Shown: piece after piece, positions 28,835-64,000 of the stretch
Layout: every line of letters begins with the position of its first letter
Numbering within the stretch: the first letter of the stretch is position 1
From: Streptomyces capillispiralis
Lineage (GTDB): Bacteria; Actinomycetota; Actinomycetes; Streptomycetales; Streptomycetaceae
DNA length: 64,000 bases
Assembly (NCBI RefSeq): GCF_007829875.1
Contig: NZ_VIWV01000001.1
Coordinates: forward strand, 744,001 to 808,000
Direction: 5' to 3'
Notes under the pieces: model-generated
Database searches by the model: none
Told to the model about the DNA's origin: nothing
What the model saw: only the letters and a program-made list of their open reading frames with translations
Position numbers and translations under genes: made by a program

Positions 28835-30037
28835 TCAGTGGCCCGCGGTGACGCCCGAGAGCTCGTTGCTGCTCTTCGGCAGGGTCACGGACTTCAGCTT
28901 CTCACCGGACTCGATGTCGACGGCGTGCAGCGCCCGCTTGCCCGGCTCGGAGACGTACGCCGTGTGGTCGCGGACGAACAGGGTGGGCCGGGGCTGCTGC
29001 CAGTCCAGGGGCTCCTGCCACTCGCCGACCACGGAGATCTTCTTCTCGATCTTGCCCGTCTCGGGGTCGATGACGTGCAGGACGCCGTTGGTGCCGAGGA
29101 CGAGCGCCTCACCGTGCGGGCCGCGGCCCAGCGAGCGGAACGAGTAGCTGGTGCCCAGGTCGACCAGGCGCAGCTTCGCGGTCCGGGTGTCGATGAGGGA
29201 GATGCGCGTGGGCCGCTCCAGTTCGGCCTCGGGGTCGGTCTTGTAGTCGCCGAGAAGGACCGGGGACTCCTCGCTGCCCGCCTGGTTGCCGATGCGGCCG
29301 TAGTCGTCGGGCGCCTCGACCTTGGTGAACTCGCCGTCCTTGTAGATCAGTACGCCGTCCTCGCAGCCGACGGCGACGGCCTCGCCCTTCGCGGCGGCCT
29401 CGCCGTGGACGCCGGGGCAGTTCTCGGCGCGTTCGATCTCCTTGTTGTCCTTGTCGAGGACGAGGGCGCCGGTGCGCTTCTCCTCGGTGCCCAGGGTGCT
29501 GAGGAGTTCGCCGTTGCTCAGTTCGATGGCGACGCCGTGGTGGGCCTCGGCGGAGGCGTAGGTGCGTCCCTGGGGCTTCTTGCCGCCGGCCAGGTCGTCG
29601 GGGTCGAAGACGTTGACCTCGCCGGTGCCGTCGGTGAACAGGACGGTCTTGCCGGCGTGGCGGACGACGTGGCCGGGCTTGGCGCCGGGGTACTCGACGC
29701 CGGTGAAGGACTGCTCGTCGGCGTTGAGTACGCGGAACCCGGCGTCGGTGGAGACGATGACGTGGGAGGCGTCGCCGGCGGGGTTCACGCGGTTGAAGCC
29801 GGGCAGTTCGATGGTCTTGGCGACCTTCAGGCTCTCGCCGTCCAGGACGTACAGGCCGCCGTCGAAGGTGGCGACCAGCGGGTCCTTCACCGGCACGGCC
29901 TTGGCCGCCGGCGACTTCTCCGGTGCCGCGGTGTCGGCCGGGGAGTCGTCCCCGCCGCCGCAGGCGGTCAGGACGGTGGCGACGGCCAGGGCGAGGGCGG
30001 TGCCGGTGAGGGCTCTGGTGCGGGTCGGCTTGTTCAT
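28835..30037 (-). CDS. aztD: Zinc chaperone AztD
   Basis: The 400-residue exported lipoprotein (lipobox LTAC near residue 26) is a seven-bladed beta-propeller-like protein of the AztD family, with repeated blades such as DPLVATFDGGLYVLDGES and GVLHVIDPETGKIEKKISV. It has conserved His-rich loops, for example SAEAHHGVAIEL and NCPGVHGEA. AztD delivers zinc to the binding protein AztC in the Paracoccus AztABCD system. It is the last gene of the leftward operon aztB, aztD-like, aztC, aztD. The GAGGA before ATG 30037 sets the start. Control by the Zur box at the aztA/aztB promoter is expected. Confidence 0.87.
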   Translation of the reverse strand: MNKPTRTRALTGTALALAVATVLTACGGGDDSPADTAAPEKSPAAKAVPVKDPLVATFDGGLYVLDGESLKVAKTIELPGFNRVNPAGDASHVIVSTDAGFRVLNADEQSFTGVEYPGAKPGHVVRHAGKTVLFTDGTGEVNVFDPDDLAGGKKPQGRTYASAEAHHGVAIELSNGELLSTLGTEEKRTGALVLDKDNKEIERAENCPGVHGEAAAKGEAVAVGCEDGVLIYKDGEFTKVEAPDDYGRIGNQAGSEESPVLLGDYKTDPEAELERPTRISLIDTRTAKLRLVDLGTSYSFRSLGRGPHGEALVLGTNGVLHVIDPETGKIEKKISVVGEWQEPLDWQQPRPTLFVRDHTAYVSEPGKRALHAVDIESGEKLKSVTLPKSSNELSGVTAGH

Positions 30038-30063
30038 GGTGTTCCTCTTTCGTGGTCGGGGTT

Positions 30064-31023
30064 TCAGGCGCCGGTGAGGCCGTCGGTCATGGCCGTGGTG
30101 TTGGCGCGCATCATCTGCAGGTAGGTGGCGGCACCCTTGCCCGGCTCGGTCAGGGACTCGGAGTAGAGCTCGACGACCCGCACCTGGCCGCCCAGTTCCT
30201 TGCGCAGGACCTCGGCCAGCCGCTTGGGCTGGGAGGAGTCGGCGAAGACGGTGCGCACACCGGCCTCCCGCATGGCCTCGGTGAGCGAGCGCAGATCGGA
30301 GGAGCTGGGCGAGGCGAGGGTCGTGCCGCTGGGGATGACCGCGCCGATCACGCGGAAGCCGAAGCGGTCGGCGAGGTAGCCGAAGACGTGGTGGTTGGTG
30401 ACCAGGGCGCGCCGTTCCTCGGGGACGGTGCCGAAGGTGTCCTCCATCCACGTGGTGAGGTCGGCGAGTCGGCGGTCGTAGCGGTCGGCGTTGGCGCGGA
30501 CGGTCTTCTCGTCGACGCCGTCGACGTGTTCGACGACCTGGTCGGCGATCAGGCCGGCGGCCTTGCGCACCCGGTCGGGGTCGGTCCAGAAGTGCGGGTC
30601 GGGCTGTCCGGCCCCGTCCTCGGGGCCGCCGTCGTCGTGCGCCTGGAAGGTGAGGGGGTCCACCGCCTCGCCGGCCCCGAAGGTGGCGACGCCGGACTCC
30701 CGGGCGGCGTCGACGTGGCGCAGCACGTTCTCCTCCAGGCCGAGCCCGTTGTAGACGACGAGGTCGGCCTGTTCGAGTTCGGCGGCCTGCACGGCCGACA
30801 GGCCGAAGGAGTGCGGGTCGGCGTTGGGCTTCATCAGGACGGTGATGTCGGCCTGGTCGCCGACGATCTCGCGGGTGATGTCGCCGAGGATGTTGGTCGT
30901 CACGACCACGCGGGCCTGCTCCTCGCCGCTCGCGCAGGCGGTGGCGGTGGTGAGGGAGGCGAAGGCGACGAGGGTGACGAGCAGGCGGCGCAGGCGCGGC
31001 GTGGTGCGCTTCGGTGTCGTCAT
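30064..31023 (-). CDS. aztC: Zinc-binding lipoprotein AztC of a cluster A-I type ABC importer
   Basis: The 319-residue protein has a signal peptide with a likely lipid-modified Cys30. Metal-site residues H71 (ADPHSF), H144 (DPHFW), H211 or H212 (TNHHVFGYLADRFG) and D262 (FADSSQP) match cluster A-I zinc/manganese receptors. The His/Asp-containing flexible loop is short (FQAHDDGGPEDGAGQPDPHF), as in AztC rather than ZnuA. It captures zinc outside the membrane for the AztB/AztA transporter. Its start overlaps the stop of the upstream AztD-like gene as ATGA. Confidence 0.9.
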   Translation of the reverse strand: MTTPKRTTPRLRRLLVTLVAFASLTTATACASGEEQARVVVTTNILGDITREIVGDQADITVLMKPNADPHSFGLSAVQAAELEQADLVVYNGLGLEENVLRHVDAARESGVATFGAGEAVDPLTFQAHDDGGPEDGAGQPDPHFWTDPDRVRKAAGLIADQVVEHVDGVDEKTVRANADRYDRRLADLTTWMEDTFGTVPEERRALVTNHHVFGYLADRFGFRVIGAVIPSGTTLASPSSSDLRSLTEAMREAGVRTVFADSSQPKRLAEVLRKELGGQVRVVELYSESLTEPGKGAATYLQMMRANTTAMTDGLTGA

Positions 31024-32261
31024 CGTCCGGTCTCCACCATCAGGGCCGGCTCGATGTCCAGGTCGAAGGTGCGGGCGATGCGCAGGTTGTCGTTGTAGTC
31101 GATCTCGTACACGCGTCGGCCCTCGGGGTCGTTGAGGTAGGCGCGGCTGCGGTCGACCTCGATGACCGGGCCGGTCCCGCCCCGCGCGGTGGCGTCCTCC
31201 AGCAGCCGCTCGGTGCGGGTCAGGTGCTTGCCGGTGGCGATGTCGTAGCCGTGCAGGGATCCGTCGGCTTGCAGGACGAGCAGCGGGGAGCCCTCGCCGG
31301 CGGTGTTGGCGGCGACGACGGGCCCGGTGGGCACGCGCGTCCAGGTCCGGTCGGTGACGTCCAGGACCCAGACGGCCCGGTCGCCGGCGGGTGCGGTGAG
31401 GGTGTCGCTGCCGGCGCGGTGGTGGAAGGCGGTGGCGCGTTCCTTCGCGGGGACGTCGTCGTCGTAGGGGATGCGTTCGGCGGTGAACTCGCCGTCGTCC
31501 TCGCGGACGAGCAGGGCGCCGTCGGCGCAGCCGAGGACGACTCCGCGCCGGGTGACGGCGTCGCCGCGCGGGTCCTCGCAGCGGGCGCCGGGGGTGGCGA
31601 CGCGCTTGCCGTCGCGGTCGTACACCGTGAGTTCGGCGGTTCCCTCGCCGTCGTCCGTGAGGGCGAGCAGGTGCTCCGCGTAGGGGACCACGGCCGCCGT
31701 GTGCGTTCCGGGCAGCGTGGTCGGGGAGCCGGTCCGGCCCTTCTCCAGTGCGGTGCGGTCGTAGAGCGCGGTCCGGCCGTCCTCGTCGGTCACCGCGGTC
31801 ACGGCGGCGTCGCTGCGGACCTGTGCGCCGGAGCCGGCCGGAAGATCGCCGACGGTGCGGATCGCCGCGCGGTAGTAGTGCACGTGGTCGCCGTGGTCCA
31901 CCATCCAGGAGCCGGCGTCGAGGACCCGGGTGCCGTCGGCGGTGTGGAGGAAGCCGAACCGGCCGTCCGTGGTGAGGCGTGCGGTGTCCTTCGTGCCGGA
32001 CACCTTGTGCGTCGTGCCGGTGATCAGGTCCAGGACCCGGGTGTCCCCGGTGCCCGGGTCGTTGAGCAGCAGCCGGGACTGCTGCTCGGCGCTCTCCTTG
32101 GCGCCTTCGACGTATCCGTGCGGGGTGGTGGCGGAGGGGCTGCCCGCCGGGGCGAACGCGTCGTCGTCCTGGGCGGAGCAGCCGGTGACGAGCAGGGCGG
32201 CGGCCAGCAGCGCGGCCGGTGTGCGGGCGGTGGCCCGGCGGGCGGGTATGCGGGCAGACAA
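31020..32261 (-). CDS. Second AztD-like lipoprotein
   Basis: The 413-residue exported protein (lipobox LVTGC near residue 28) is a beta-propeller related to AztD. It has blades such as ALTDDGEGTAELTVYDRDGKRV and AVWVLDVTDRTWTRV, and a His-containing strand, MVDHGDHVHYY. It lies between aztB and aztC on one transcript and begins with TTG at 32261 preceded by GAGG. Having two AztD-like proteins in one zinc operon suggests division of labour, for example a different zinc donor or recipient, or a sensor of extracytoplasmic zinc. It is less like AztD than the downstream copy, so the chaperone function is inferred. Confidence 0.75.
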   Translation of the reverse strand: MSARIPARRATARTPAALLAAALLVTGCSAQDDDAFAPAGSPSATTPHGYVEGAKESAEQQSRLLLNDPGTGDTRVLDLITGTTHKVSGTKDTARLTTDGRFGFLHTADGTRVLDAGSWMVDHGDHVHYYRAAIRTVGDLPAGSGAQVRSDAAVTAVTDEDGRTALYDRTALEKGRTGSPTTLPGTHTAAVVPYAEHLLALTDDGEGTAELTVYDRDGKRVATPGARCEDPRGDAVTRRGVVLGCADGALLVREDDGEFTAERIPYDDDVPAKERATAFHHRAGSDTLTAPAGDRAVWVLDVTDRTWTRVPTGPVVAANTAGEGSPLLVLQADGSLHGYDIATGKHLTRTERLLEDATARGGTGPVIEVDRSRAYLNDPEGRRVYEIDYNDNLRIARTFDLDIEPALMVETGR

Positions 32262-32282: not shown

Positions 32283-33140
32283 TCAGTCGGTGGCCGCGGC
32301 GGGGGCGCCGCCGGGGCGGGCACGGCGGCGGTGGCGCAGTCCGGATGCCAGGTGGGAGAGGAAGAACAGGACGACGGCGAGGGCCGAGACGGTCGCGCCG
32401 GCGGCGGTGCCCAGGTGCCAGGACAGCAGCAGTCCGCCGAAGGTCGCGGCGACGCCCAGGACGGTCGCGAGGGCCATGACGCCCCGCACGCTGCGCGCCC
32501 AGGGCAGTGCGGCGGCGGGCGGTGCGATGAGCAGGCCCAGGACCAGCAGCGTGCCCACGATGTGGAAGGAGGCGACGATGGCCAGGGCGAGCAGACCGAG
32601 CAGGACGGCGTGGGCGAGGCGGGGGCGCAGGCCGAGGGTGCGGGCCTTGCGCGGGTCGAACGCCAGGGCGAGGAAGGCGCGGTGGCCGAGAACCGAGACG
32701 GCGAGGGCCAGCAGCAGCGCCACGGCCAGCAGCACCAGGTCCTGTTCCCGGACGGCGAGGACGTCGCCGAAGAGGAAGCCGGTGAGGTCGACCGCGAAGG
32801 ACTGCGACCGCGACACGATGATCACGCCCAGCGACAGCATGCCCACGAACAGCAGGCCGATGCCGGTGTCCTGGGACAGCCTCGGGGTCCGGCCGAGGGC
32901 GGTGACGCCCGCGGTCATGACGGCCGCGCTCAGCAGCGCCCCCACCAGCAGGTTGCCGCCGAACAGCGCGGCGAGCGCGACGCCCGGCAGCAGTCCGTGG
33001 GACATGGCGTCACCGAGGAAGGCCATGCCTCTGAGCACCACCCAGGTGCCGGCCAGGGCACAGATCGCCGACACCAACATTCCGCCCCACAAGGCCCTTT
33101 GCACGAAGGTCACCTCGAAGGGGCCTGTCAACCACTCCAT
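32283..33140 (-). CDS. aztB: Zinc ABC transporter permease
   Basis: The 285-residue protein is an ABC-3 (ZnuB/MntB) family permease with about eight hydrophobic helices. Motifs include GGMLVSAICALAGTWVVLRGMAFLGDAMSHGLLPGVA and FHIVGTLLVLGLLIAPPAAALPWARS. It translocates zinc received from AztC using AztA. It is the first gene of the leftward operon. Its start lies only 24 bases from the divergent aztA start, and TAGTGT on the minus strand ends seven bases before the ATG, suggesting a leaderless transcript starting at the ATG. A Zur box in the same interval should repress it. Confidence 0.88.
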   Translation of the reverse strand: MEWLTGPFEVTFVQRALWGGMLVSAICALAGTWVVLRGMAFLGDAMSHGLLPGVALAALFGGNLLVGALLSAAVMTAGVTALGRTPRLSQDTGIGLLFVGMLSLGVIIVSRSQSFAVDLTGFLFGDVLAVREQDLVLLAVALLLALAVSVLGHRAFLALAFDPRKARTLGLRPRLAHAVLLGLLALAIVASFHIVGTLLVLGLLIAPPAAALPWARSVRGVMALATVLGVAATFGGLLLSWHLGTAAGATVSALAVVLFFLSHLASGLRHRRRARPGGAPAAATD

Positions 33141-33146: not shown

Positions 33147-33171
33147 CACACTACAATGAAAACCATGTTCA
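33147..33171. promoter_or_regulatory. Zur box within overlapping leaderless aztA/aztB promoters
   Basis: The 15-mer TGAAAACCATGTTCA (33157-33171) matches 11 of 15 positions of the best Zur-type site in the window (59019-59033). It spans the aztA start codon at 33165. TACAAT (33152-33157) ends seven bases before that ATG on the plus strand, and TAGTGT (33147-33152 as its complement) ends seven bases before the aztB ATG on the minus strand. One Zur dimer pair would block both transcription starts. Confidence 0.75.
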
Positions 33172-33899
33172 AAACACCGCGCCCCTCCCCCGCCCCCGCG
33201 GAAGAACGGACGCCTCGCATCCGTTTCACCGGTCTGTCCGCCGGCTATCCAGGGCGCCCGGTCCTGCATCAACTGGACGCCGACATACCGGCATTGGCGG
33301 TCACCGCACTCGTCGGCCCGAACGGAAGCGGGAAGTCCACGCTGCTCGGAGTGCTGGCCGGCGTGATCCGCCCCACAGCGGGCGAGGTCCACCACGCCGG
33401 TGACCGGTCCCCGGCGTTCGTCCCGCAGCGCGGCGCCGTCGGGGACGCACTGCCGCTGACGGTCCGGCAGACGGTGGAGATGGGACGCTGGGGCGACCGC
33501 GGACCGTGGCGCCGACTGACCCGCCGGGACCACACCCTGGTGGACACGGCGCTCGAACGGCTGGGCATCGGCCACCTCGCCGCGCGCCAACTGGGCGAAC
33601 TGTCCGGCGGACAGCGGCAGCGGGCGCTCATCGCCCAGGGGCTCACCCAGGAGTCGGACCTGCTGCTCCTGGACGAGCCGACGACCGGGCTCGACCCCGA
33701 GGCGCGGGAGCAGATCGCGGCATTGCTGACGGAGCTGGTCGCCGACGGGGTGACCGTCGTCCAGGCCACCCACGACCTGGGCGCGGCACGCACGGCGGAC
33801 GCGTGCCTCCTCCTCCGCGAGGGACGACTGGCCGCCCGGGGACGCCCGGAGCGGGTGATCACCACCGAGACACTCACCCAGATCTGGCAGCCGGCCTGA
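33165..33899 (+). CDS. aztA: Zinc ABC transporter ATPase
   Basis: The 244-residue ATPase has Walker [10 protein letters not shown] (51-59), a Q-loop in [11 protein letters not shown], signature [16 protein letters not shown], Walker [14 protein letters not shown] and H-loop VQATHDLGA, typical of ZnuC/MntB-type metal importers. ATG at 33165 is preferred: it lies seven bases after a -10 hexamer with no ribosome binding site. An ATG at 33156 is also in frame. It works with AztB, AztC and AztD, encoded divergently. Confidence 0.88.
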
Positions 33900-34396: not shown

Positions 34397-35566
34397 ATGC
34401 CCTCCCGACGGCTGCCCGTCACCGTACTGTCGGGCTTCCTGGGCGCCGGCAAGACCACGCTGCTCAACCACGTCCTCTCCAACCGCGAGGGGCTGCGCGT
34501 GGCGGTGATCGTCAACGACATGAGCGAGGTCAACATCGACGCCGCCCTGGTGCGCGGGGGCGAGGCCGCCCTCGCCCGCACCGAGGAGCGCCTGGTGGAG
34601 ATGACCAACGGCTGCATCTGCTGCACGCTGCGGGACGATCTGCTGGAGGAGGTCGAACGCCTGGCCCTGGAGGGCCGGTTCGACTACCTGCTCATCGAGT
34701 CCAGCGGCATCTCCGAGCCCATGCCGGTCGCCGCGACGTTCGCCTTCGCCCGCGACGACGGCGCCGTCCTGGGTGACGTGGCCCGCCTGGACACCATGGT
34801 GACCGTCGTCGACGCCGCCAACTTCCTCACCGAGCTGGGCACCGGCGACGACCTCGCCGAACGCGGTCTGGCGCCCTACGAGGACGACGAGCGGACCGTC
34901 AGCGACCTGCTGGTCGACCAGGTCGAGTTCGCCGACGTGCTGGTGCTCAACAAGCTGGACCTGGTCGGCGAGGCCGACGCGGACCGGCTGCGCGGGGTGC
35001 TCACCCGGCTCAACCCGACGGCCCGTCTGATTCCCGCCGTACGGGGACGGGTGGAGGCCCGCGCCGTCCTGGAGACCGGACGGTTCGACCTGGAGCGCGC
35101 GCAGCAGGCGCCGGGCTGGGTGCGGGAGCTGAACGGCGACCACGTCCCGGAGACCGAGGAGTACGGCATCTCCTCGCTGGTGTTCCGCTCCCCCGCCGCC
35201 TTCCATCCCGGACGGCTGTGGGACTTCGTCACCGGGGAGCTGGACAGCGGGCGGCACGGACGGGTGCTGCGCTCCAAGGGGTTCTTCACCCTGGCCGGGC
35301 GGGCGGGCGTGACGGGCCTGTGGTCGCAGGCCGGTTCCGTCGGCCGGTTCGAGCCGTCCGGCGTGCGGGACGCCGACGCGCCGCACGCGCAGGAGATCGT
35401 GTTCATCGGGGTCGGGCTGCGCGAGGCGGACCTGCGCGAGGCGCTGTCCCGCTGTCTGATGGCCGAGGGCGAGCCGGTCCCGGCCGACGATCCCTTCCCC
35501 GCCTGGGACACCGGTGACGTCTGCGACCTCGAACACGACCACCGCGGTCCGGCGACGGTCTCCTGA
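34397..35566 (+). CDS. COG0523 GTPase (zinc metallochaperone, ZNG1/YciC type)
   Basis: The 389-residue protein has a G3E GTPase domain: P-loop [11 protein letters not shown] from residue 13, metal motif CICC (C73-C76, preceded by TNG), IESSGISEP and NKLDLV. A C-terminal CobW_C domain ends with the acidic/His tail [13 protein letters not shown]. Zur-regulated members of this family deliver zinc to essential apo-enzymes during starvation. It is co-transcribed with the C-minus L32 and upstream of zur. The specific client protein is not predictable. Confidence 0.9.
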
Positions 35567-35610: not shown

Positions 35611-36045
35611 ATGCACGAGAGGACCCGGGCCGAGTGGCGGGCGACCCGGCAGCGGGCCGCCGTCCTGCGGGCCCTGCACGCCTGTGACACCTTCGTCTCG
35701 GCCCAGGCCCTGCACGCCGCGCTGACGGCGGACGGGGTGACGGTGGGTCTGACCACCGTCTACCGCACCCTCCGGCTGCTGGTGGCCGGCGGCCACGTGG
35801 ACGTGGTGCGCGACGGTGACGGTGAGCGCCTGTACCGGCCCCGGCCGGACGACGGTCACCGTCACTACGTCGTCTGCCGGGAGTGCGGTCTGAGCCTGGC
35901 GGTCGACTCGGAGGAGGTCGAACGGTGGGTGGCGAGGATCGCGCGGGACATCGGGTTCCACGCGGTGGACCACACCGTCGAGCTGACGGGGGTGTGCGAG
36001 CGGTGCCGCCCCGACGTCCCCGCGGGCCGGGGCGCGCACCGCTGA
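35611..36045 (+). CDS. zur: Zinc uptake regulator Zur (Fur family)
   Basis: The 144-residue Fur-family repressor has a winged HTH (TRQRAAVLRALHACDTFVSAQALHAAL, TTVYRTLRLLVAGGHV) and a metal-binding dimerisation domain. Structural zinc cysteines C89/C92 and C129/C132 are present, and regulatory-site His residues H83, H85, H117 and H121. Start ATG 35611 has AGGAGG seven bases upstream; an upstream ATG at 35578 is rejected for lack of one. The arrangement with rpmF, COG0523 and aztABCD, and the Zur boxes, identify it as Zur rather than Fur. With zinc bound it should repress the metallophore and importer genes. Confidence 0.88.
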   Translation: MHERTRAEWRATRQRAAVLRALHACDTFVSAQALHAALTADGVTVGLTTVYRTLRLLVAGGHVDVVRDGDGERLYRPRPDDGHRHYVVCRECGLSLAVDSEEVERWVARIARDIGFHAVDHTVELTGVCERCRPDVPAGRGAHR

Positions 36046-37168: not shown

Positions 37169-37196
37169 TTGAAAATGATAATTATTATCGTAGCTA
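37169..37196. promoter_or_regulatory. Zur box inside the divergent promoter
   Basis: TGAAAATGATAATTA (37170-37184) continues into TTATC to give the near-perfect palindrome GATAATTATTATC. It lies between TTGAAA (37169-37174) and TAGCTA (37191-37196), spaced 16 bases, reading towards the thioredoxin-reductase-like gene. The same site is 34 bases upstream of the divergent reductase start, so both genes should respond to zinc. Confidence 0.75.
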
Positions 37197-37229: not shown

Positions 37230-38153
37230 ATGTACGACGTGATCGTGGTGGGCGGCGGGCCCGCGGGCCTCAACGCGGCCCTGGTGTCCGGGCGTCAGCG
37301 CCGGCGGGTGCTGCTGCTCGACTCGGGCAGCCCGCGCAACGCGCCCGCCGAGGAGATGCACATGTTCCTCAGCCGCGACGGGTTCCCGCCCGCCGAACTG
37401 CGCCGCATCGGCCGCGAACAGCTCGGCGCCTACCCGAACGTGGAGGTGCGCGAGGCCACCGTCACCGACGCCGCGGCCGAGGCGCCGGGGTTCGCCCTGA
37501 CGCTGGCCGACGGCACGGTGGAGCGGACCCGCAAGCTGGTCCTGGCCACCGGACAGGTCGATCTGCTCGACGAGCGGGTGGAGGGCCTGTCCGCGCTGTT
37601 CGGGCGGGGCGTGTACCACTGCCCGTTCTGCCACGGCTGGGAGACCGGCGGGATGAGCCTGGCCGTCCTCGGTCACGAACTGCCGCAGGTCATGCAGGCG
37701 CTGTACGTGGCCGACCGCTTCAGCGACGACGTGATCGTGTGCACCGACGGCCATCCGGTGCCCGAGCAGGCCGCGGGCCGGCTCGCCGCCGCCGGGATCG
37801 CCGTGGAGGAGACGGCCGTCGACCGCATCGAGGGCGAGGCCGGGGCGCTGCGCCTCGTCCTCGCCGACGGCCGGGTGCTGGAGCGGCAGGCCGTCTACCA
37901 CCGGGCGCCCACCCGTCAGCACTCCGCGCTGGCCGAGGGGCTGGGCTGCCACATCCTGCCGGACGGGTGCGTGCGGGTGGACGAGTTCCAGCGCACCTCC
38001 GTGCCCGGTGTGTACGCGGCCGGCGACACCGCCCGGCTGGAGGCCCTGCCGGACGCCCTCACGTTCGTGGTCACCGGTGCCGCGGACGGCGCCCGGGCCG
38101 CGGTCTGGCTGGACCAGGAACTGTTCCGCGAGGACGCCGGCCTGGGCGGCTGA
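37230..38153 (+). CDS. Thioredoxin-reductase-like flavoprotein (dithiol oxidase type)
   Basis: The 307-residue protein has an FAD loop GGGPAG (8-13), a redox-active CPFC (C131-C134, YHCPFCHGWE) and a C-terminal FAD loop VYAAGDTA. The CPFCHGWE form resembles GliT/HlmI-like dithiol oxidases, which close disulfides in dithiol natural products, as well as low-molecular-weight thioredoxin reductases. The usual NADPH-binding GGGxxA motif appears altered (LAVLGHELPQ), consistent with the oxidase group. It diverges from the reductase over a Zur box, so a role in metallophore maturation or thiol balance under zinc starvation is inferred. Confidence 0.8.
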   Translation: MYDVIVVGGGPAGLNAALVSGRQRRRVLLLDSGSPRNAPAEEMHMFLSRDGFPPAELRRIGREQLGAYPNVEVREATVTDAAAEAPGFALTLADGTVERTRKLVLATGQVDLLDERVEGLSALFGRGVYHCPFCHGWETGGMSLAVLGHELPQVMQALYVADRFSDDVIVCTDGHPVPEQAAGRLAAAGIAVEETAVDRIEGEAGALRLVLADGRVLERQAVYHRAPTRQHSALAEGLGCHILPDGCVRVDEFQRTSVPGVYAAGDTARLEALPDALTFVVTGAADGARAAVWLDQELFREDAGLGG

Positions 38154-57700: not shown

Positions 57701-58940
57701 GGTCGAAGGGGGGTGTGCCGACCAGGGCGGTGGTGGTGAAGTCGCCGACCACGCCCTCGGCACCGCCCTCGTCCTCCGGGCGGTCGAACAGGGTGGTGTT
57801 GAGGCAGAGTCGCTCCCCGGCGCCCCACCGGCCGAGGACGACGGCGAACGCGGCGAGCAGGGCGGCGGTCGGGGTGACCGCGTGTTCGGCGCACCGGGCG
57901 CGCAGTGCGGCCCAGGTTTCGGCGTCGAGTTCGGCGGCGGAGCGGACGAAGCGGGGCGGGGTGGTGTCGGCGGGGTCGCGCAGCAGGGGCAGGCGCGGGG
58001 CCGGCGGGAGGCCGGGGGCGCGTTCGGCCCAGTAGGCGCGGTCGCGGGCGCGCCGGGCCGCCCACTCCGGGTCGGTGGCGCGGGCGCGCTGGAGGTCGGC
58101 GAAGCGGGCCCGCGGCTCGGGCAGGCGGTGGGCGGGGTCGTCGACGAGACGGCCCCACTGGCGCATCAGCAGCATCCAGCCGGCGAGGTCGGTCAGCAGC
58201 ACGTCGACGCCGACGTGCAGGCGGGTCCGGCCGTCGGGCAGCAGGGTGGCGTGGAGGTCGAACAGCGGCCAGGAGCCGGTGGGGCGGTTCTGATGGGACC
58301 GCTCCTGCCGCTGCGCCGACAACGTTTCCCGCACCCGGTCCGCACTCTCGTGGCGCACGTCGGTGACGCCGATGCGGTAGGGGCCGGGGGCTTCGAGGAT
58401 GTGCTGGCGGCCGCGGTCGTCCACCGTCATGCGCAGCATCGGGTGGTGGGCGACCAGCCGGTTCCAGGCGGTCTCCAGGCGGGCCACGTCCACGAGCGGG
58501 TCCGTGTCGCCGGGCGTGCGGTCGTACTCGTAGTAGTAGAAGGTGGCCACGCCGCCCAGCGGCAGGCCCTCGGCCCGTCCGGCGAGGTAGGAGGCCTGAA
58601 TGGGCGTCAGCGGGAAGCCGTCCGCGTCGTGTTCCCGCCCTTCCGGGGTCTCGGGGCCGGGTGCGCCGGCGGGCGGGGCGTCCTGCGGGGCCCGGCCGGC
58701 GAGCACCCGGTCCGCCACCGCGCGGACCGTGGCGGAGTCGCCCAGGAAGGCGGTCAACGGCAGGTCCTGGCCGGTGCGTTCGCGGATCCTGCGCCGCAGC
58801 CGTACCGCGGTGAACGACTCCAGCCCCAGGGCCGCGAGGGGAGTCGTCGGCGCGACGTCCCCGGGTGAGGTGCCGAGGACCTCGGCTGTGCAGTCGATGA
58901 CGCGGGCGAGGATGTCGTCGCTCGGCACGGGCTGGTTCAT
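54744..58940 (-). CDS. NRPS loading subunit ArCP-Cy-A(Cys)-PCP
   Basis: From ATG 58940 (GGAGA five bases upstream) the product has 1398 residues. It has a carrier at 8-80 (GLES, Ser42, in the position of an aryl carrier), Cy at about 108-540 (D246xxxxD251, but Gly254 where Ser is usual), A at about 575-1075 (FTSGSTGSPKG at 725-735, A10 Lys1069), and PCP at about 1280-1350 (GATS, Ser1310). Specificity residues read D771, L772, F775, N814, then L, S, L, I, W, i.e. the cysteine code. The A domain is not interrupted, unlike HMWP2 or PchE. A roughly 200-residue Ala/Gly/Pro-rich insert separates A and PCP. It should start the chain and form the first thiazoline. Confidence 0.9.
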   Translation of the reverse strand: MNQPVPSDDILARVIDCTAEVLGTSPGDVAPTTPLAALGLESFTAVRLRRRIRERTGQDLPLTAFLGDSATVRAVADRVLAGRAPQDAPPAGAPGPETPEGREHDADGFPLTPIQASYLAGRAEGLPLGGVATFYYYEYDRTPGDTDPLVDVARLETAWNRLVAHHPMLRMTVDDRGRQHILEAPGPYRIGVTDVRHESADRVRETLSAQRQERSHQNRPTGSWPLFDLHATLLPDGRTRLHVGVDVLLTDLAGWMLLMRQWGRLVDDPAHRLPEPRARFADLQRARATDPEWAARRARDRAYWAERAPGLPPAPRLPLLRDPADTTPPRFVRSAAELDAETWAALRARCAEHAVTPTAALLAAFAVVLGRWGAGERLCLNTTLFDRPEDEGGAEGVVGDFTTTALVGTPPFDPAGWKGFADYATAVNHRFWEDLDHRSVSGVEVLRELRTHTPPTVGAPSHPVVFTSGVGLAGDGEAPAAWIGREVHGISQTPQVLLDHIVWDEDGRLRLAWDAVEGAFPDGWIQALLDAHVRLLRTLTDADAWRDTTLGWDPSFHPEEPLDAVPFPTAGPLLHDPAADAARRHPRRPALRTATATVSHARLADNAAATASLLAAHGVGPGDMVAVACEKGTAQITAVLGVSLGGAGYLPVEPTWPAARIAAVCERAGVRHALTGRGVRIEWPDTVTVHRLTAAGRPARAAAAPAEPVAPLAVPRPDDLAYTIFTSGSTGSPKGVEIQHRAARTTIDDIVDRFAIGPEDRVLALSALSFDLSVFDIYGVLGAGGCLVLPEPARQRDPQHWLELAGRHGVTVWNTAPALLEMLVEYAEMEPEEAATALRTLRLVMLSGDWIPLTLPDRLRRLAPQAKVMSLGGATEASIWSITHPVEHTDPGWRSIPYGRALRAQSFFVLDENGAPCPVGEAGELFIGGDGLARGYTGDPAQTAERFAVHPVLGRRLYRTGDLGRWTADGTIEFLGRVDRQVKIRGHRIELGEVEAVLARHPAVRQCVVSSVRGPDGRPRLVAHLSPRGASEPPTAEELADALRERLPDYMVPSRFVILDQLPVTANGKIDHAALTAPAGAAAPAGAGLASAGAGGEPAVAGRPATDAGVPAAETGVPTLDAGESAVDAGGAAAVAGERNGPRADSGPAAAGEEAASVGRSPVDGQWAAAAVAEAAALGLEVSVVVRPGGLRPDQALEASARWLRTVARAAGSAPVEARLPADGLAEILCPSDESKAASPSAPAAGSALPSDVTRADGNADGRTPSPSRRTAAPAPVDPAVLEALTAVLADFTDSPVTPESTFAALGATSLTLVLTHRRLREGIAPGLALADMFEHPTVAALAARITAQRATDTAEPADPSAGDGTPAVRPPTTPQPERPARRSSRLAARALAEETTR

Positions 58941-59010: not shown

Positions 59011-59039
59011 AACCTAGATGAAAATGATTATCAGATCAA
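59011..59039 (-). promoter_or_regulatory. Zur-controlled promoter of the metallophore operon
   Basis: On the minus strand TTGATC (59034-59039) and TAGGTT (59011-59016) are spaced exactly 17 bases. The intervening 59017-59033 contains the strongest Zur-type site of the window, written on the plus strand as TGAAAATGATTATCA (59019-59033). Zinc-loaded Zur bound there would exclude RNA polymerase. The -35 box overlaps the stop codon of the upstream methyltransferase gene. Confidence 0.8.
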
Positions 59040-59788
59040 CCAATGTGTGATGACGTTGTGTCCGCGCGCTCCAGAACACACAGCCCCAGCGCCGGATCAC
59101 CCGCCCGGCGCAGGGCCAGCCCCGCCTCGGCGGCCTCGGCGGCCAGCGCCTCCTCCGTGGCGACCCACCAGCGGTACTCGACCGACGCCCGGCCCAGCGA
59201 CCGGCCCCGGCGCAGCACGCCGTACTCCATGCGCCAGGTGATCTCGTCCGCGCCCGTGGGGCGCGCGCTCGCCCAGCCCTCGTACTCCATCTCGCCGATG
59301 ACGGCCCCGGCCATCCGCACCCGCTCCACCTCGACGGGCGCGAACGGCGGAGTGATGTTGAACACCAGGGCGCCGCCCGGGGCGAGTTGGTGGGCGGCGC
59401 GGCCCCACAGCGCGCGCCGCTGCCCGGGCGGCAGGTGGCCGACCATGTTCAGGGCCACCACCGCGCGCACCCCGTCGGGCCATTCGGCGCCGGCGCAGTC
59501 GTCGGGAACCACCGTGACCCGCCTGCGCAGTTCCGCGTCCTCATGCACCCGGGCGAGCAGGACGGCGCGCATCGCGGCCGAGGGCTCGACGGCCAGTACC
59601 GGCGCCCCCGGCAGCGCGTCGCGGATCACGCGCACGCCCCGGCCCGATCCCGCCCCGAGGTCCACCACGGTGCCGGTGGTGGCCCGCACCCGGGCCAGGA
59701 CGTCCGCCAGGGCCGGGCCCAGCGCGTCCCACGCCTCGGCGATCAGGATGTCGAGGTACTCCGCGGACCGTTCGTAGGGGTCGCTCAT
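59036..59788 (-). CDS. Class I SAM methyltransferase of the zinc island
   Basis: The 250-residue protein has SAM motif VVDLGAGSGRGVRVI, an acidic loop VLAVEPSAAMRAVL, VRAVVALNMVGHLP and LAPGGALVFNITPPF. ATG 59788 was chosen because the longer frame crosses a probable promoter. A Zur-like palindrome lies about 85 bases upstream and the synthetase promoter begins at its stop codon, so it is probably part of the same response. It may methylate the metallophore or an intermediate (N, O or carboxyl). Sequence alone does not reveal the acceptor. Confidence 0.75.
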   Translation of the reverse strand: MSDPYERSAEYLDILIAEAWDALGPALADVLARVRATTGTVVDLGAGSGRGVRVIRDALPGAPVLAVEPSAAMRAVLLARVHEDAELRRRVTVVPDDCAGAEWPDGVRAVVALNMVGHLPPGQRRALWGRAAHQLAPGGALVFNITPPFAPVEVERVRMAGAVIGEMEYEGWASARPTGADEITWRMEYGVLRRGRSLGRASVEYRWWVATEEALAAEAAEAGLALRRAGDPALGLCVLERADTTSSHIG

Positions 59789-59869
59789 CACCGCTCCAGA
59801 CGCTCGATGCCTCACAGTTCGTCGGGCGGGCGCACGAGCGGACCGCCGACGCCCCGTACAGTAATCGCA

Positions 59870-59882
59870 AATGAATTTCATT
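59870..59882 (-). promoter_or_regulatory. Zur-like box upstream of the methyltransferase gene
   Basis: AATGAATTTCATT is an odd-length perfect palindrome (AATGAA-T-TTCATT) resembling the AATGA/TCATT core of actinobacterial Zur sites. On the minus strand TTGTCG precedes and TTACTGT follows it, giving a plausible promoter for the gene starting at 59788. Confidence 0.55.
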
Positions 59883-59990: not shown

Positions 59991-60293
59991 TCAGTGGTCG
60001 TCCCAGTGGTCCTCGTGGGCGGCGTGCCGGTGGCCGTCGTGGACGTAGTCGACGTGGTCCCCGTGCGGGACGGCGACGTGCCCGCAGCCCTCCTGGTGGC
60101 GGTGGCCGTGGCCCTCGTGCGGCGCGTGACGTTCGGTGGTGCACTCGTCCACGTGACCGTCGTGGGAGCGGTGGATGTGGCCGTCGTGCACGTAGTCGAC
60201 GTGGTCCCCGTGCGGGACGGCGACGTGCCCGCAGCCCTCGTGGTGCTGGTGGTCGTGGCCCTCGTGGGTGCGGTGCTCGGTGGCGGACGTCAT
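59991..60293 (-). CDS. Histidine-rich, probably zinc-binding protein
   Basis: The 100-residue protein contains 28 histidines and three cysteines and consists essentially of two copies of a roughly 45-residue unit. Each has GCGHVAVPHGDHVDYVHDGH, followed by a variable His/Asp tail (RHAAHEDHWDDH at the C-terminus). There is no signal peptide or membrane segment, so it is probably a cytoplasmic zinc store or chaperone. The two copies are also almost identical at DNA level, pointing to a recent internal duplication. No clear Zur box was found upstream, but its neighbours have them. Confidence 0.8.
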   Translation of the reverse strand: MTSATEHRTHEGHDHQHHEGCGHVAVPHGDHVDYVHDGHIHRSHDGHVDECTTERHAPHEGHGHRHQEGCGHVAVPHGDHVDYVHDGHRHAAHEDHWDDH

Positions 60294-60441: not shown

Positions 60442-61002
60442 GTGACCACGCATGAGAGAGTGCACGCGCCCGTCATCACGCAGATCAGCCGGCCCGAGGA
60501 CGTCACCGCCGCCCTCGGACGGGAGCTGACCGACTGCTGGGCGGGCGTCATCAACGCCGGCGGGGCGGTCGTCCCGATGGACTGCCCGCTGCCCCCGGTG
60601 AGTCCGTCGACGCTCGGACCGGCGATGGACCGGATCGCCGGACAGCTCTCCCCGCAGCGGCTCAGGCTGCTGATGGCGACCGTGGACGGCACCCTCGCCG
60701 GCTGGATGCTGCTGCGCCGTGAGCAGCACCCGCTCGTGGCGCACTGCGGGGTGGTGAACCATGTGCAGACCCGGGTCGGCTTCCGGGGCCGGGGCGTCGG
60801 CGTCGCGCTGATGCGGCACGCCGCGCGGATCGCGCGCGAGGAGATGGGCCTGGAGCGGCTGCAACTGACCGCGCGGGACGGTCTGGGCCTGGACGCCTTC
60901 TACCGCAAGGCCGGCTGGACCGAGGTGGGCCGGTGGCCGGGCGCGCTGCGGGTGGCACCCGGGGACGACCGGGACGAGATCCTCATGAGCCTGGAGCTGT
61001 GA
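60442..61002 (+). CDS. GNAT-family acetyltransferase
   Basis: The 186-residue protein has the GNAT core VQTRVGFRGRGVGVALMRHAARIAREEMG with the acetyl-CoA pyrophosphate loop, and the C-terminal LTARDGLGLDAFYRKAGWTEVGRWPG typical of small-molecule acetyltransferases. GTG 60442 starts the conserved region. It is the only rightward gene in this part of the island and converges on a methyltransferase gene. No Zur box is evident. It may be unrelated to zinc, or may modify a metallophore intermediate. Confidence 0.75.
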   Translation: MTTHERVHAPVITQISRPEDVTAALGRELTDCWAGVINAGGAVVPMDCPLPPVSPSTLGPAMDRIAGQLSPQRLRLLMATVDGTLAGWMLLRREQHPLVAHCGVVNHVQTRVGFRGRGVGVALMRHAARIAREEMGLERLQLTARDGLGLDAFYRKAGWTEVGRWPGALRVAPGDDRDEILMSLEL

Positions 61003-61023: not shown

Positions 61024-61803
61024 TCACGCGCCGCCGTCCCCCTTGACCGCCACCAGCACGGCGCTGTCGCCGAACTGCCAGACGGAGGTGACGTGCCGGA
61101 AGCCCGCCTGCCGCAGCAGCGCGGCATGGCGGCCCGCCGTCAGCTCCTCGTCGCCCCCGCCGCCCCCGAGGGCGGCCAGGCGCTGCTCGCGCTCCACGAA
61201 CAGGTCGGCCAGCTCCGGGTCCCGGGCGGCCGCGGCCCACCACGACCCCCAGTCCTCGTGGACGTGGCCGCCCGTCCGCTCGGCGCGGCGGCGGCCGACG
61301 TGCGCGGTGAGGTCCGCGCACGGGGCCTCGTCGGGCGGGAAGTGGTCGCCGTTGACGAGGACACCGCCGGGACGCAGCAGGGCCGCGAGCCGCCGGTAGG
61401 TGTCCAGGAGCACCGGCTCCGGGAGGTAGTGCAGGGCCGTCGTGGAGACGGCGGCGTCCAGCGGGCGTCGCAGCCCGAGGGCGTCCGTCCAGCCCTCCTC
61501 GCCGATCACCGCGTCGACGTAGCGTGCGCTGTCGGAGTGGTGGGTGCGGCCCAGCTCCAGCAGCAGCGGGTCCATGTCGACGGCGACGATCTCCGCGTCC
61601 GGCAGCCGGTCGGCGAGCCGGGCGGACAGGGAGCCGGGGCCGCAGCCGAGGTCGAGCAGGAGCGGCCGGGCACGGCCGGCGGTGGCGTGCTCGACGACGT
61701 CCGTGATCACCGTGAACCGCTCCTCGCGGTCCACCGCGTACCGCTGCTGCTGAAGCTCCCAGCGCTCCACCCACGCTTTGGCCGTCTCCATGCTCACGCC
61801 CAT
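61024..61803 (-). CDS. Class I SAM methyltransferase with a Zur-like site upstream
   Basis: The 259-residue protein has an N-terminal helix WVERWELQQQRYAVDREERF, SAM motif LLLDLGCGPGSLSARLADRLP, acidic loop IVAVDMDPLLLELG, VSTTALHYLPEPV and LLRPGGVLVNGDHFPP. It is like small actinobacterial methyltransferases of secondary metabolism. A Zur-like 15-mer lies 62-76 bases upstream of ATG 61803. It is downstream of the SufS-like gene, possibly with its own zinc-regulated promoter. The acceptor is unknown. Confidence 0.75.
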   Translation of the reverse strand: MGVSMETAKAWVERWELQQQRYAVDREERFTVITDVVEHATAGRARPLLLDLGCGPGSLSARLADRLPDAEIVAVDMDPLLLELGRTHHSDSARYVDAVIGEEGWTDALGLRRPLDAAVSTTALHYLPEPVLLDTYRRLAALLRPGGVLVNGDHFPPDEAPCADLTAHVGRRRAERTGGHVHEDWGSWWAAAARDPELADLFVEREQRLAALGGGGGDEELTAGRHAALLRQAGFRHVTSVWQFGDSAVLVAVKGDGGA

Positions 61804-61864: not shown

Positions 61865-61879
61865 TGGAAACGGTTATCA
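61865..61879. promoter_or_regulatory. Zur-like box upstream of the methyltransferase gene
   Basis: TGGAAACGGTTATCA matches 12 of 15 positions of the site at 59019-59033. On the minus strand it lies between the SufS-like stop codon and the methyltransferase start, followed by a TGTAGATT stretch that could be the -10 region. Confidence 0.6.
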
Positions 61880-61887: not shown

Positions 61888-63108
61888 TCAGTTCAGTGAC
61901 TCGAGTACGCTCAGCAACCGGTCGACCTCCTCCACGGTGTTGTACACATGGAGACTGACCCGCACCGAACCGTCCTTCTCCCCCACTCCGGCCTGGCACA
62001 TGGTGTCGGCGCGCACCATGAAACCGTGGCTGTAGAGGATGAACCCCAGGTCGTCGGAGGGGATGTCGCGGTGCCGGAACGTGACGATGCCGTGCCGACG
62101 CTGGGCCGCCGGCAGCGCGGAGCCGGCGGCCAGACTGACCTGGCAGCCGAGGATCTCGTAGGCGTCGAGGTGGCGCAGCCGGTCGGTCAGCCGGCCGGCG
62201 AGGCCGGTGGTCCAGCGCGCGATCCGGTGCGGTCCGGCCGCGTCCAGCCAGTCCAGTGCGGCCCGCAGCGACACGATGCCCGCCGTGTTGGGTGTCCCCT
62301 GCCAGCCGCCCGGACGGAACACCGGACCGCGCGCGTTGCGCGCCCACACCGCCCCGGTCCCGGGCAGCGCCATCGCCTTGTGCCCGGAGAACACCACGAA
62401 GTCGACGTCCAGCTCGCTGACGTCGACGGGCAGATGGCCGACGCTCTGGGCGGCGTCCAGGCAGATCGGCACGTCCGGGCCGACCGCCTCGCGGATCCGG
62501 TGCACGTTCATGTCGCCGCCGTACACGTGGTGGACGTGCGTGGCGGCCACGAAGCGGGTGCGCGGGCCGACCACCCCGTCCAGGGCGCGGTGGTCGTAGT
62601 CGCCGGAGCCCTCCTGGTACGGCAGTGCCCGCACGCGGATGTCGACGCCGCGCTCGGCCAGCAGCAGCCGCGCCTCGAGCCAGGGGTCGAGGTTGGCCCG
62701 GTGGTCGGCGTGCGGCACCAGGATCTCGTCGCCGTCGGTGAGGTGGGGGACGAGCCAGTCGCGGGCGACGCTGCGCAGGCCCTCGGTGGTGCCGCTGGTG
62801 AAGTGGACGCCGGAGCGGTCCGGTCCGGGGTCGTGCAGGAAGTCCTTGACCCGCTGCCGGGTCGTGTCCACCAGTTCCGTGGTGCGGTTGGCCCAGGGGT
62901 AGGTGCCCCGGCCCGCGTTCGCGTTCGACGTGGTGAGGTAGGTCTGTACGGCGTCCAGCACGGCGCGCGGCTTCTGCGAGGTCGCCGCGCTGTCCAGGTA
63001 CGCCGACTCCGGGTGCGCCGTGACGATCGGGAACTGCTCCCGCAACTCCCGCTGCCACAGCGCGTCTTCATCGTGCTCCGCCCCGGGGAGCCGGCCGGCC
63101 GCGCTCAT
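61888..63108 (-). CDS. SufS/CsdA-like class V PLP enzyme (cysteine desulfurase family)
   Basis: The 406-residue protein has the class V aminotransferase/cysteine-desulfurase fold. It has YLDSAATSQKPRAVLDAVQTYL near the N-terminus, HFTSGTTEGLRSVA, HADHRANLDPW, ICLDAAQSVGHLPVDVSELDVDFVVFSGHK with PLP-lysine K244, and a late Cys371 in RADTMCQ. It lacks the exact RxGHHC desulfurase loop, so it may be a desulfurase-like lyase or transaminase rather than an Fe-S enzyme. ATG 63108 overlaps the stop of the cysteine-synthase-rhodanese gene (ATGA), so the pair probably act on one sulfur amino acid for the metallophore. Confidence 0.8.
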   Translation of the reverse strand: MSAAGRLPGAEHDEDALWQRELREQFPIVTAHPESAYLDSAATSQKPRAVLDAVQTYLTTSNANAGRGTYPWANRTTELVDTTRQRVKDFLHDPGPDRSGVHFTSGTTEGLRSVARDWLVPHLTDGDEILVPHADHRANLDPWLEARLLLAERGVDIRVRALPYQEGSGDYDHRALDGVVGPRTRFVAATHVHHVYGGDMNVHRIREAVGPDVPICLDAAQSVGHLPVDVSELDVDFVVFSGHKAMALPGTGAVWARNARGPVFRPGGWQGTPNTAGIVSLRAALDWLDAAGPHRIARWTTGLAGRLTDRLRHLDAYEILGCQVSLAAGSALPAAQRRHGIVTFRHRDIPSDDLGFILYSHGFMVRADTMCQAGVGEKDGSVRVSLHVYNTVEEVDRLLSVLESLN

Positions 63109-64000
63109 TCGCGCACCAGCGGCGCGCCCGCGTCCCGCCAGGCGACGATGCCGCCGGCCAGGCTGCGCACGTCGGGATGTCCCCTGCGGGTCAGCAGCGC
63201 GGCGTAGCGCAGGGACTTCTCGCCGACGGGACAGGCCAGCAGGACCGGGGTGCGCTTGCTGAACGGGAGGCCGCCGCGGACCAGTTCGTCGAACACCTCG
63301 TCGACGATGTTGACCGAGCCCTCGATGTGCAGGGCCCCGTAGGCGTGCGGGCTGCGCAGATCGACGACGAGCGGGCGGGGATCGCCCTCCGCGGTCCAGC
63401 GGCGGGCGTCGGCGACGGTGATGACCCGGGCCTCCGCCTGCGCCTCGGCGTCGGTGAGGGACGCCGCCGTGTGCCCCCGCTTCGCCTGGCCCAGCAGCTC
63501 GGGGCGGCGCCTGCGCACGTAGCTGAGGTAGCTCTCGGCCCGGTCGCACACGATGAACACGGCCGTGCGGCGCTCCCCCGTGCCGTCCAGTTCGGCGTCC
63601 GCGTCCCGCAGATGGCGTACCGCGCCCTGGTAGGCGGCGCCTCCGGTCGGTCCGGACAGCAGTCCGCAGCGGCGGATCAGGGTGACCATCCCGTCGATGG
63701 CCTCCCCGGAGGTCACCGACTCGATGGTGTCGTACGTCCCCGGGTCGAACAGGCCGACCTGGTGGACCTCGTCGATGGTGCGGATGCCGGGGATGAAGTC
63801 GGACTTGTGGGCGACCAGGCCGAGGACCCGGACGGCCGGGTCGTGTTCGCGCAGGACGCGCGCGACTCCGGTGGACGAACCGGCCGTGCCCACACAGGCG
63901 ATGAACCAGTCCGGCACCCGGCCGTCCAGGTCCTTCACTATCTCGGGCCCGGTGCCCGCCGCGTGCGCCTCGGTGTTGCGCGGGTTGAAGTACTGGTCGG
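63105..64000 (-). CDS. Cysteine synthase-like PLP enzyme fused to a rhodanese domain (5' part outside window)
   Basis: About 298 residues are visible, and the frame stays open to the window edge (DQYFNPRNTEAHAAGTGPEIV). The first part is the C-terminal half of a fold-type-II PLP enzyme of the cysteine synthase group (PDWFIACVGTAGSSTGVARVL, GLLSGPTGGAAYQGAVRHL). The last about 110 residues are a rhodanese domain with VVDLRSPHAYGALHIEGSVNI and catalytic Cys in LLACPVGEKS. The fusion suggests that sulfide or persulfide is handed between sites, either making or trimming cysteine. It is translationally coupled to the SufS-like gene and probably feeds cysteine or sulfur to the thiazoline-forming synthetase. 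Confidence 0.82.
   Translation of the reverse strand, partial: DQYFNPRNTEAHAAGTGPEIVKDLDGRVPDWFIACVGTAGSSTGVARVLREHDPAVRVLGLVAHKSDFIPGIRTIDEVHQVGLFDPGTYDTIESVTSGEAIDGMVTLIRRCGLLSGPTGGAAYQGAVRHLRDADAELDGTGERRTAVFIVCDRAESYLSYVRRRRPELLGQAKRGHTAASLTDAEAQAEARVITVADARRWTAEGDPRPLVVDLRSPHAYGALHIEGSVNIVDEVFDELVRGGLPFSKRTPVLLACPVGEKSLRYAALLTRRGHPDVRSLAGGIVAWRDAGAPLVRE

Follow-up and report, generated by a model that had tools for sequence, protein, structure and literature searches.

Background

To our knowledge, few zinc metallophores are known, namely the opine types, ethylenediaminedisuccinate (EDDS) and coelibactin. EDDS of Amycolatopsis is reportedly an actinobacterial chelator that was found through Zur sites. 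Methanobactin is a copper-binding ribosomally synthesized and post-translationally modified peptide (RiPP) whose maturation enzymes differ from those described below. The coelibactin cluster of Streptomyces coelicolor (SCO7676-92) encodes a Zur-repressed nonribosomal peptide synthetase (NRPS), and its product is termed a zincophore in the accessible text of two reports (PMC5472717, PMC3430247). The accessible part of a further paper mentions the Zur-guided discovery of a cluster, with EDDS not named there (PMC12161575). Here we describe a predicted zinc-starvation island of Streptomyces capillispiralis, located in and beyond a window (the whole stretch of DNA analysed, 64,000 nt, G000:C1:744001-808000) of its 8.43-Mb genome, which comprises three contigs.

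At least four modules are combined in the island: azt genes with zinc-sparing genes; an NRPS/polyketide synthase (PKS) line with an Opp-type importer; pyridoxal phosphate (PLP) and sulfur enzymes; and a thiazole/oxazole-modified microcin (TOMM) peptide with a Fec importer. With a probability of roughly two in three, we read it as a Streptomyces zinc-starvation island with conserved Zur boxes that would produce and export two distinct metallophores and take them up again in zinc-bound form, alongside an AztABCD-family importer and proteins predicted to spare zinc. What is established is the gene content and the presence and conservation of the boxes; the best reading of the gene content is that both products are zincophores. 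Zur would leave the boxes when zinc is short, AztABCD would take up free zinc, and the L32, ZigA-like and His-rich proteins would spare or shuttle it. The zinc block spans ~50 kb and runs ~16.6 kb beyond the right end of the window, which we crossed with a fetched stretch (L004, C1:806001-826000). A first-pass annotation made from the window had correctly recognized an island, but the TOMM/Fec half lay outside its view.

Zur boxes and their conservation

A search of the window with TGANAATNATTNTCA at up to three mismatches gave seven matches against 0.47 expected, a number reached in 0/100 shuffles, and all seven fell within 33157-61879. The site at 59019 had no mismatch, that at 37176 had one, and those at 33157 and 37170 (the latter overlapping 37176) had two. 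The six Zur-type sites listed by the first-pass annotation were all present, but those at 34077, 59866 (given there as 59870) and 61865 were weak, with three mismatches each.

Genome-wide, TGAAAATNATTTTCA at up to two mismatches matched six places in 8.43 Mb, and the reversed control matched none. Four of these places (C1:777157, 803019, 819270 and 823352) lie within 46 kb (C1:777157-823366), in the island and its continuation. The fifth (C1:3661514) is at a gene for a Cys-free L33-like protein beside a COG0523 gene, and the sixth (C1:5346670) is at the 5' end of a znuA-like gene, the L33-like and znuA-like genes being named by inspection; the canonical zur, the best-scoring Fur-family gene (C1:5343509), is located ~2 kb away. 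Thus, each of the six places belongs either to the island or to a zinc gene. The island box agrees with the S. coelicolor Zur motif from chromatin immunoprecipitation, tGaNNatSatNNtCa, as given in the accessible text of its source (PMC5472717).

Boxes at two mismatches or fewer were conserved in the sacDH/trxR divergent promoter at 14/14 non-redundant loci, those left after removal of six duplicate contigs, and upstream of NRPS1 in 5/7 clusters (own locus included in both counts). The best site reached the same level in 19/20 precursor promoters, the exception being one copy in genome G527, and in 16/16 intervals between fecB and the propeller gene (prop); upstream of prop alone, it did so in 17/19. 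Same-length random intervals from the same loci reached this level in 1.3-1.5% of draws, real sites included. The box in the aztA/aztB interval was also present in the sole other such interval fetched (L043). The most conserved 15-column window coincided with the box in the trxR, precursor, fecB and prop alignments, and it lay off the box in the NRPS1 and L32 alignments. By their promoter boxes, the island genes form a predicted Zur regulon, with weak sites only at L32, MT_c and MT_d; the MT_c and MT_d sites, weak matches with no further support, were not accepted as firm boxes. Comparative sequence evidence gives good support to Zur control of both pathways, although related genomes are not independent of one another. 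The regulatory logic of the first-pass annotation is thereby upheld, with boxes at the NRPS operon and in the trxR/sacDH promoter.

The TOMM locus and its Fec importer

Rightward from 64000, the minus strand carries the rest of the PALP-rhodanese gene and genes for a PLP decarboxylase, two ATP-binding cassette (ABC) half-transporters, a SagB-like dehydrogenase and YcaO. These are followed by genes for an S15/CocE hydrolase, a leader-binding-like protein and the precursor, by fecE, fecD, fecC and fecB, and then by the divergent plus-strand propeller gene. Zur-type boxes are located at the fecE/precursor junction and between fecB and prop. YcaO scored 133.9 bits in Pfam (cut-off 25.7) and, with a short precursor holding heterocyclizable residues, identifies the locus as TOMM-type. 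The precursor motif LAH-x-SA[ST]HSNALVENPF, without Cys, was kept across 20 loci (SA[ST]HS core in 20/20). When the propeller structure was compared with solved structures, AztD came first by VIA-align Z and third by Foldseek E-value, after two other propellers.

TOMM YcaO genes were found in 19/150 sampled genomes of the genus and in 3/396 genomes of a phylum sample (own genome included in both), one of the latter being G527, from another family; the named homologues, among the 120 of 379 matches listed, were nearly all from Streptomyces. We fetched 20-kb stretches from 15 of the other 18 TOMM-bearing genus genomes, with G073, G099 and G126 left out for their short contigs. The order prop, fecB, fecC, fecD (or a second FecCD gene), fecE, precursor, leader-binding, S15, YcaO, SagB, half-transporters was kept in 14/15; the remaining locus, L044, has no fec genes beside the precursor. 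In seven of the 15 loci, azt, L32, ZigA (identity of 65% or more, one partial) or the His-rich gene is present as well. The 3.5-Mb genome of G527 has three YcaO copies (on C1 and C5), each with a precursor, and one precursor copy is without a box.

We propose that the YcaO, leader-binding and SagB-like proteins would heterocyclize the 37-residue peptide at the conserved SA[ST]HS, that the S15 hydrolase would trim it, and that the ABC half-transporters would move it and FecBCDE recover it, while the AztD-like propeller would be made from the same promoter region as the Fec importer. The product looks like a ribosomal, azoline-type zincophore and, if it binds zinc, the TOMM half would represent a new kind of zincophore. 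A wider proposal is that Streptomyces make a Zur-controlled azoline peptide with this invariant motif, which is exported and then recovered by its own FecBCDE and an AztD-like propeller, and that some strains combine it, within one island, with a second, nonribosomal zincophore made on a split yersiniabactin-like line; we put this forward tentatively, at slightly under even odds. No publication on this TOMM cluster or on a ribosomal azoline zincophore was found among the matches listed, at the level of titles and abstract openings and with most subscription journals outside the coverage.

The alternative that survives best, though we regard it as unlikely, is that the TOMM peptide is an antibiotic or a signal released at zinc shortage and that FecBCDE recovers another zinc chelate. 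Inhibition of bacteria or promotion of secondary metabolism is described for goadsporin and other azole RiPPs in the accessible text of a survey (PMC4603692), and the half-transporters match exporter families. However, FecB, FecC and FecE genes adjoin the precursor in 14/15 fetched same-genus loci, and the near-invariant core would be unlike a diversifying antibiotic. Moreover, in the 150-genome sample the other 18 genomes with the TOMM YcaO all lacked an MT_a match above 1e-50, the orthologue of this NRPS marker being confined to our own genome among the 19; since the others lack the marker, the NRPS product does not account for the presence of the Fec importer.

The NRPS/PKS assembly line

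The operon runs in the order NRPS1, PKS, importer (SBP5, two permeases, double ATPase), MT_a, MT_b and NRPS3. By motif and Pfam count, the line holds three cyclization (Cy) domains, one adenylation (A) domain, five carriers, a ketosynthase-acyltransferase-ketoreductase (KS-AT-KR) set and a thioesterase (TE). We take the A-domain code of NRPS1, DLFNMSLI, to be Cys-type, with presumed code positions, and two of the three Cy active-site motifs deviate from DxxxxDxxS, which we take to be the standard motif. The best solved relatives were the NRPS chain 6lta, bacillamide synthetase BmdB and dihydroaeruginoic acid synthetase for NRPS1, and EpoB, BmdB, dihydroaeruginoic acid synthetase and HMWP2 Cy chains for NRPS3. 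The NRPS chain 5wmm, matched by MT_a, is presumably an A domain interrupted by a methyltransferase. The NCBIfam matches of SBP5 (nickel, glutathione, oligopeptide and staphylopine binders) were all below their cut-offs.

Three Cy domains and a single Cys-type A domain point to thiazoline chemistry. NRPS1, PKS, NRPS3 and the stand-alone methyltransferases would build a cysteine-derived thiazoline chelator, and the SBP5-permease-ATPase system would re-import it; this half of the island is a new variant on the coelibactin and yersiniabactin kinds. The genome's best match to the aryl-AMP (salicylate or dihydroxybenzoate) ligase model TIGR02275 was 213 bits (cut-off 723.55). Because no strong ligase was found in the genome, an aryl-capped (salicylate) product was dropped as the default. 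Among eight carriers of the NRPS set, some of them draft genomes, 0/8 passed the cut-off: G022, G330 and G350 scored 549-722 bits and the other five 198-225. The assembly line is thus incompletely explained; a guess is that Cys itself, loaded by the single A domain, serves as the starter on the first carrier of NRPS1.

MT_a orthologues (E <=1e-100) occur in 8/392 genus genomes, and a scan of 84,980 species gave 14 NRPS loci, 12 in Streptomyces and two in Salinispora. The SBP5 importer is present in 14/15 NRPS clusters that cover its position; the exception is G022 (S. blattellae), the sole other MT_a carrier in the 150-genome sample, which has no TOMM YcaO. Near the NRPS cluster of G330, a Zur box (G330:C6:24158) lies upstream of another Opp-type importer with 27-31% identity to that of the island.

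It is distinctly unlikely that this pathway merely adjoins zinc genes and makes a conventional iron siderophore or a chelator of copper or cobalt. That explanation would suit the resemblance of the line to the yersiniabactin and dihydroaeruginoate synthetases, whose products presumably bind iron, and the importer families at the NRPS cluster do not fix the identity of the metal. A coelibactin-like myxobacterial cluster gave sorangibactin, termed a siderophore in the accessible text of its report (PMC10127202). However, the Zur box at the NRPS cluster, in the trxR/sacDH promoter, is conserved also in those fetched stretches that showed no azt orthologue. Furthermore, no iron box (a consensus that we assume, up to three mismatches) was found in the 82 kb of C1:744001-826000, whereas the same pattern matched eight places elsewhere in the genome; one-strand scans found none at up to six mismatches in the window or at up to five in the G022 stretch. 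On this absence we rejected iron control of the island.

The azt genes, predicted zinc-sparing genes and zur2

From one common box, aztD-aztC-aztD2-aztB are directed leftward and aztA rightward, and AztC and AztD exceed curated cut-offs next to an ABC-3 permease and an ABC ATPase, as in an AztABCD system. The product of aztD2 matched solved 6ck1 weakly (E 0.0006) over an HDHGDH stretch. The zinc importer with AztD, the cysteine-free L32 and the COG0523 GTPase of the first-pass annotation were thus borne out (AztC 402 against 350; AztD 489 against 400; the GTPase ZigA-like, though at 509 against 600), as was its synthetase operon with an Opp/Nik-type importer. Its Fur-family protein with Zur residues, here zur2, is indeed closest to S. 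coelicolor Zur, but three M-site ligands are lost.

The zur2 product shares 49% identity with the canonical Zur across 118 residues and is one of six Fur-family proteins encoded in the genome. It keeps the structural C-site cysteines (C90, C93, C130, C133), the regulatory D-site (H84, H86, E105, H122) and H36, and the G316 orthologue likewise retains the D-site and has the same M-site changes. H85 as an M-site ligand, and the C-site and D-site residue numbers other than H84 and E105, are our assumption. H84 and E105 belong to the D-site and C79 and H87 to the M-site, and a cyanobacterial Zur without the M-site is active and senses zinc via the D-site alone, according to the accessible text of PMC11077047. 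The zur2 product, with its D-site only, would tune the zinc response. The gene is a natural test case of D-site-only sensing.

The boxes could instead be Fur-family sites at which zur2, and not the canonical Zur, responds to a different cue, for example oxidative stress or some other metal. This is improbable. The missing M-site ligands, the location of zur2 inside the island and the number of Fur-family genes speak for it; however, the D-site and H36 are kept, a cyanobacterial Zur senses zinc through the D-site alone (PMC11077047, accessible text), the same box accompanies the Cys-free L33 locus as well as the znuA-like gene, and among the fetched loci zur2 is present only in our own and in G316.

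The His-rich protein, with repeated HEGCGHVAVPHGDHVDYVHDGH-like units, is likely to be a zinc-binding chaperone or store; orthologues occur in G316 and by the TOMM locus of G057. The PLP decarboxylase, PALP-rhodanese, SufS-like enzyme and MT_d form a module (window 61024-64472, L004:2436-3932) that follows the TOMM cluster in G027 and G316 and the NRPS cluster in Streptomyces sp. 549, where no MT_d is in view.

Modular composition of the island

The synteny search proposed by the first-pass annotation recovered the synthetase set in Streptomyces and Salinispora and, in G316, the whole block from L32 to the propeller gene without azt beside it. In G132 and G027, azt adjoins the TOMM block, followed by the PLP decarboxylase; G027 also has the PALP gene, the SufS-like enzyme and MT_d. 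In Streptomyces sp. 549, PLP enzymes follow the NRPS cluster, and a YcaO homologue named from that strain is on a contig of another length. Since the modules occur apart in other genomes, the island represents shared control and company of separable modules and not a single pathway; the claim of one zincophore production and recovery programme is therefore unsupported in that form. A fortuitous accumulation of unrelated clusters in a chromosome arm, the boxes being random matches, can be dismissed as an explanation: modules do occur apart elsewhere, but four of the six genome-wide boxes lie in ~0.5% of the genome, the conserved footprints at the boxes already contradict it, and G316 has the same large block without azt.

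Several observations weigh against a Zur-controlled island with two zincophores. Three of the six sites first reported are weak, the NRPS1 promoters of G022 and G350 have no box at up to two mismatches, 0/5 L32 promoters reach two mismatches, and 2/19 prop upstream regions miss this level; many of the compared genomes are related, and their loci are not independent. The three G527 precursor loci have no adjoining fec genes. The NCBIfam scores of SagD (199.1 against 219.25 bits), SagB (49.6 against 78.4) and the leader-binding protein (23.7 against 36.9) are below their cut-offs, and the comparison of the propeller with the AztD profile (hhalign) was not significant. A strong starter-loading ligase is absent in 5/8 genomes with the NRPS set, our own included, and the Fec and Opp families also transport other ligands.

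The block provides two new zincophore candidates, each with its exact genes, operators and importers. Zinc scavenging by soil actinomycetes becomes a directly testable question, and the Zur boxes indicate the culture medium to the chemist. The left flank (citrate-type transporter, dehydrogenases, NMT1-like ABC transporter) has no box match and was excluded from the island. The only Rfam match in the window was a cobalamin riboswitch (RF00174, 11534-11656, 74.9 bits).

Table 1. Genes and Zur-type sites of the island (window positions unless prefixed C1 or L004)
Feature	Position	Strand	Evidence and remarks
aztD, zinc metallochaperone family	28835..30037	-	NCBIfam AztD 488.9 bits, cut-off 400; solved AztD 6cmk, E 2.8e-21
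aztC, zinc substrate-binding lipoprotein	30064..31023	-	NCBIfam AztC 402.1 bits, cut-off 350; Pfam ZnuA
aztD2, second AztD-like protein	31020..32261	-	DHGDHVHYY motif; NCBIfam AztD 61.6 bits, below cut-off 400
aztB, ABC-3 permease	32283..33140	-	Start approximate; Pfam ABC-3 216.6 bits
Zur box, aztA/aztB divergent promoter	33157..33171		TGAAAACCATGTTCA; overlaps first aztA codons; among the six genome-wide places
aztA, ABC ATPase	33156..33899	+	Start approximate; Pfam ABC_tran E 1.1e-25 (searched from 33186)
Weak Zur-like site upstream of L32	34077..34091		TGAAAACCGTTGTCT, 3 mismatches; near-identical site in G316
rpmF2, ribosomal protein L32	34221..34391	+	By sequence inspection; 0 Cys in translation
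ZigA-like COG0523 GTPase	34397..35566	+	NCBIfam ZigA 509.2 bits, below cut-off 600
zur2, Zur paralogue	35611..36045	+	D-site and structural C-site kept; M-site C79/H85/H87 to R/R/Y
sacDH, saccharopine-dehydrogenase-like NADP oxidoreductase	36050..37135	-	Pfam Sacchrp_dh_NADP
Two overlapping Zur boxes, sacDH/trxR divergent promoter	37170..37190
trxR, thioredoxin-reductase-like FAD oxidoreductase	37230..38153	+	Pfam Pyr_redox_2; below TRX_reduct cut-off
NRPS3, carrier-Cy-carrier	38201..40240	-
MT_b, stand-alone methyltransferase	40219..41640	-	Pfam Methyltransf_12
MT_a, stand-alone methyltransferase	41631..43016	-	Resembles those inside interrupted A domains; sole PDB match 5wmm, E 8.5e-37
Double ABC ATPase, Opp/Nik-type importer	42994..44568	-	Two ABC_tran stretches
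Permease B	44568..45389	-	BPD_transp_1
Permease A	45386..46390	-	BPD_transp_1
SBP5, solute-binding lipoprotein	46384..47949	-	NikA/OppA/CntA superfamily; SBP_bac_5 259 bits
PKS/NRPS, KS-AT-KR-ACP (acyl carrier protein)-Cy-TE	48001..54747	-	No carrier found between Cy and TE
NRPS1, carrier-Cy-A-carrier	54744..58940	-	A-domain code read as Cys-type
Best window Zur box, upstream of NRPS1 operon	59019..59033		TGAAAATGATTATCA, 0 mismatches; among the six genome-wide places
MT_c, methyltransferase	59036..59869	-	Pfam; adjoins NRPS1 in 7/7 clusters reaching it
Weak Zur-like site at MT_c start	59866..59880		3 mismatches; <=3 reached in 2/7 clusters (own included)
His-rich protein	59991..60293	-	28 His in 104 translated residues (translation, His count)
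GNAT acetyltransferase	60442..61002	+	Pfam
MT_d, methyltransferase	61024..61803	-	Pfam
Weak Zur-like site upstream of MT_d	61865..61879		3 mismatches; identical in G316
SufS-like class V PLP enzyme	61888..63105	-	TIGR01979 242.8 bits, cut-off 475.1
Cysteine-synthase-like PALP domain fused to rhodanese	63105..64000	-	Extends to window-equivalent 64472
TOMM-type locus	L004:4059-18594 (L004 = C1:806001-826000)		FecBCDE importer, 37-residue precursor, two Zur boxes
Precursor, 37 residues	C1:819094-819207	-	MDNEQVFAPIADPGQLAHDSASHSNALVENPFEDTEE
AztD-like beta-propeller	L004:17413-18594	+	No evident signal peptide; divergent from fecB wherever fecB is present in fetched loci

Comparison with known systems

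The NRPS half resembles coelibactin as a Streptomyces NRPS under predicted Zur control, a likeness that extends to the boxes and the Cy domains only. It differs in its split yersiniabactin-like line, PKS module, stand-alone methyltransferases and Opp/Nik-type importer. Coelibactin reportedly has a ligase and a domain order of its own, whereas no aryl-AMP ligase scores above 213 bits in this genome. The yersiniabactin proteins HMWP2 and HMWP1 presumably have the same count of three Cy domains, one A domain, five carriers, KS-AT-KR and TE, and the Cy domains here match solved HMWP2 chains. However, the present line is split over three proteins, its methyltransferases are separate genes, its last carrier does not adjoin the TE, it has no strong salicylate ligase, and it is accompanied by Zur boxes and not by an iron box of the assumed consensus.

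The importer is like AztABCD in that AztC and AztD pass the NCBIfam cut-offs, but the operon encodes two AztD-like proteins, and the TOMM locus adds a third, a propeller that lacks an evident signal peptide. With regard to EDDS, the PALP and PLP-decarboxylase genes here are related only at the family level. Among ribosomal metallophores, the nearest analogue would be methanobactin, although the precursor described here has no Cys and its locus has Zur boxes instead of copper control. The accessible main text of a survey of azole TOMMs contains none of the whole words zinc, iron, metal and siderophore (PMC4603692). Goadsporin-type azole TOMMs share YcaO, a SagB-like dehydrogenase and a short precursor with the present locus (PMC4603692, accessible text), which differs from them in its Fec importer, AztD-like propeller and Zur boxes.

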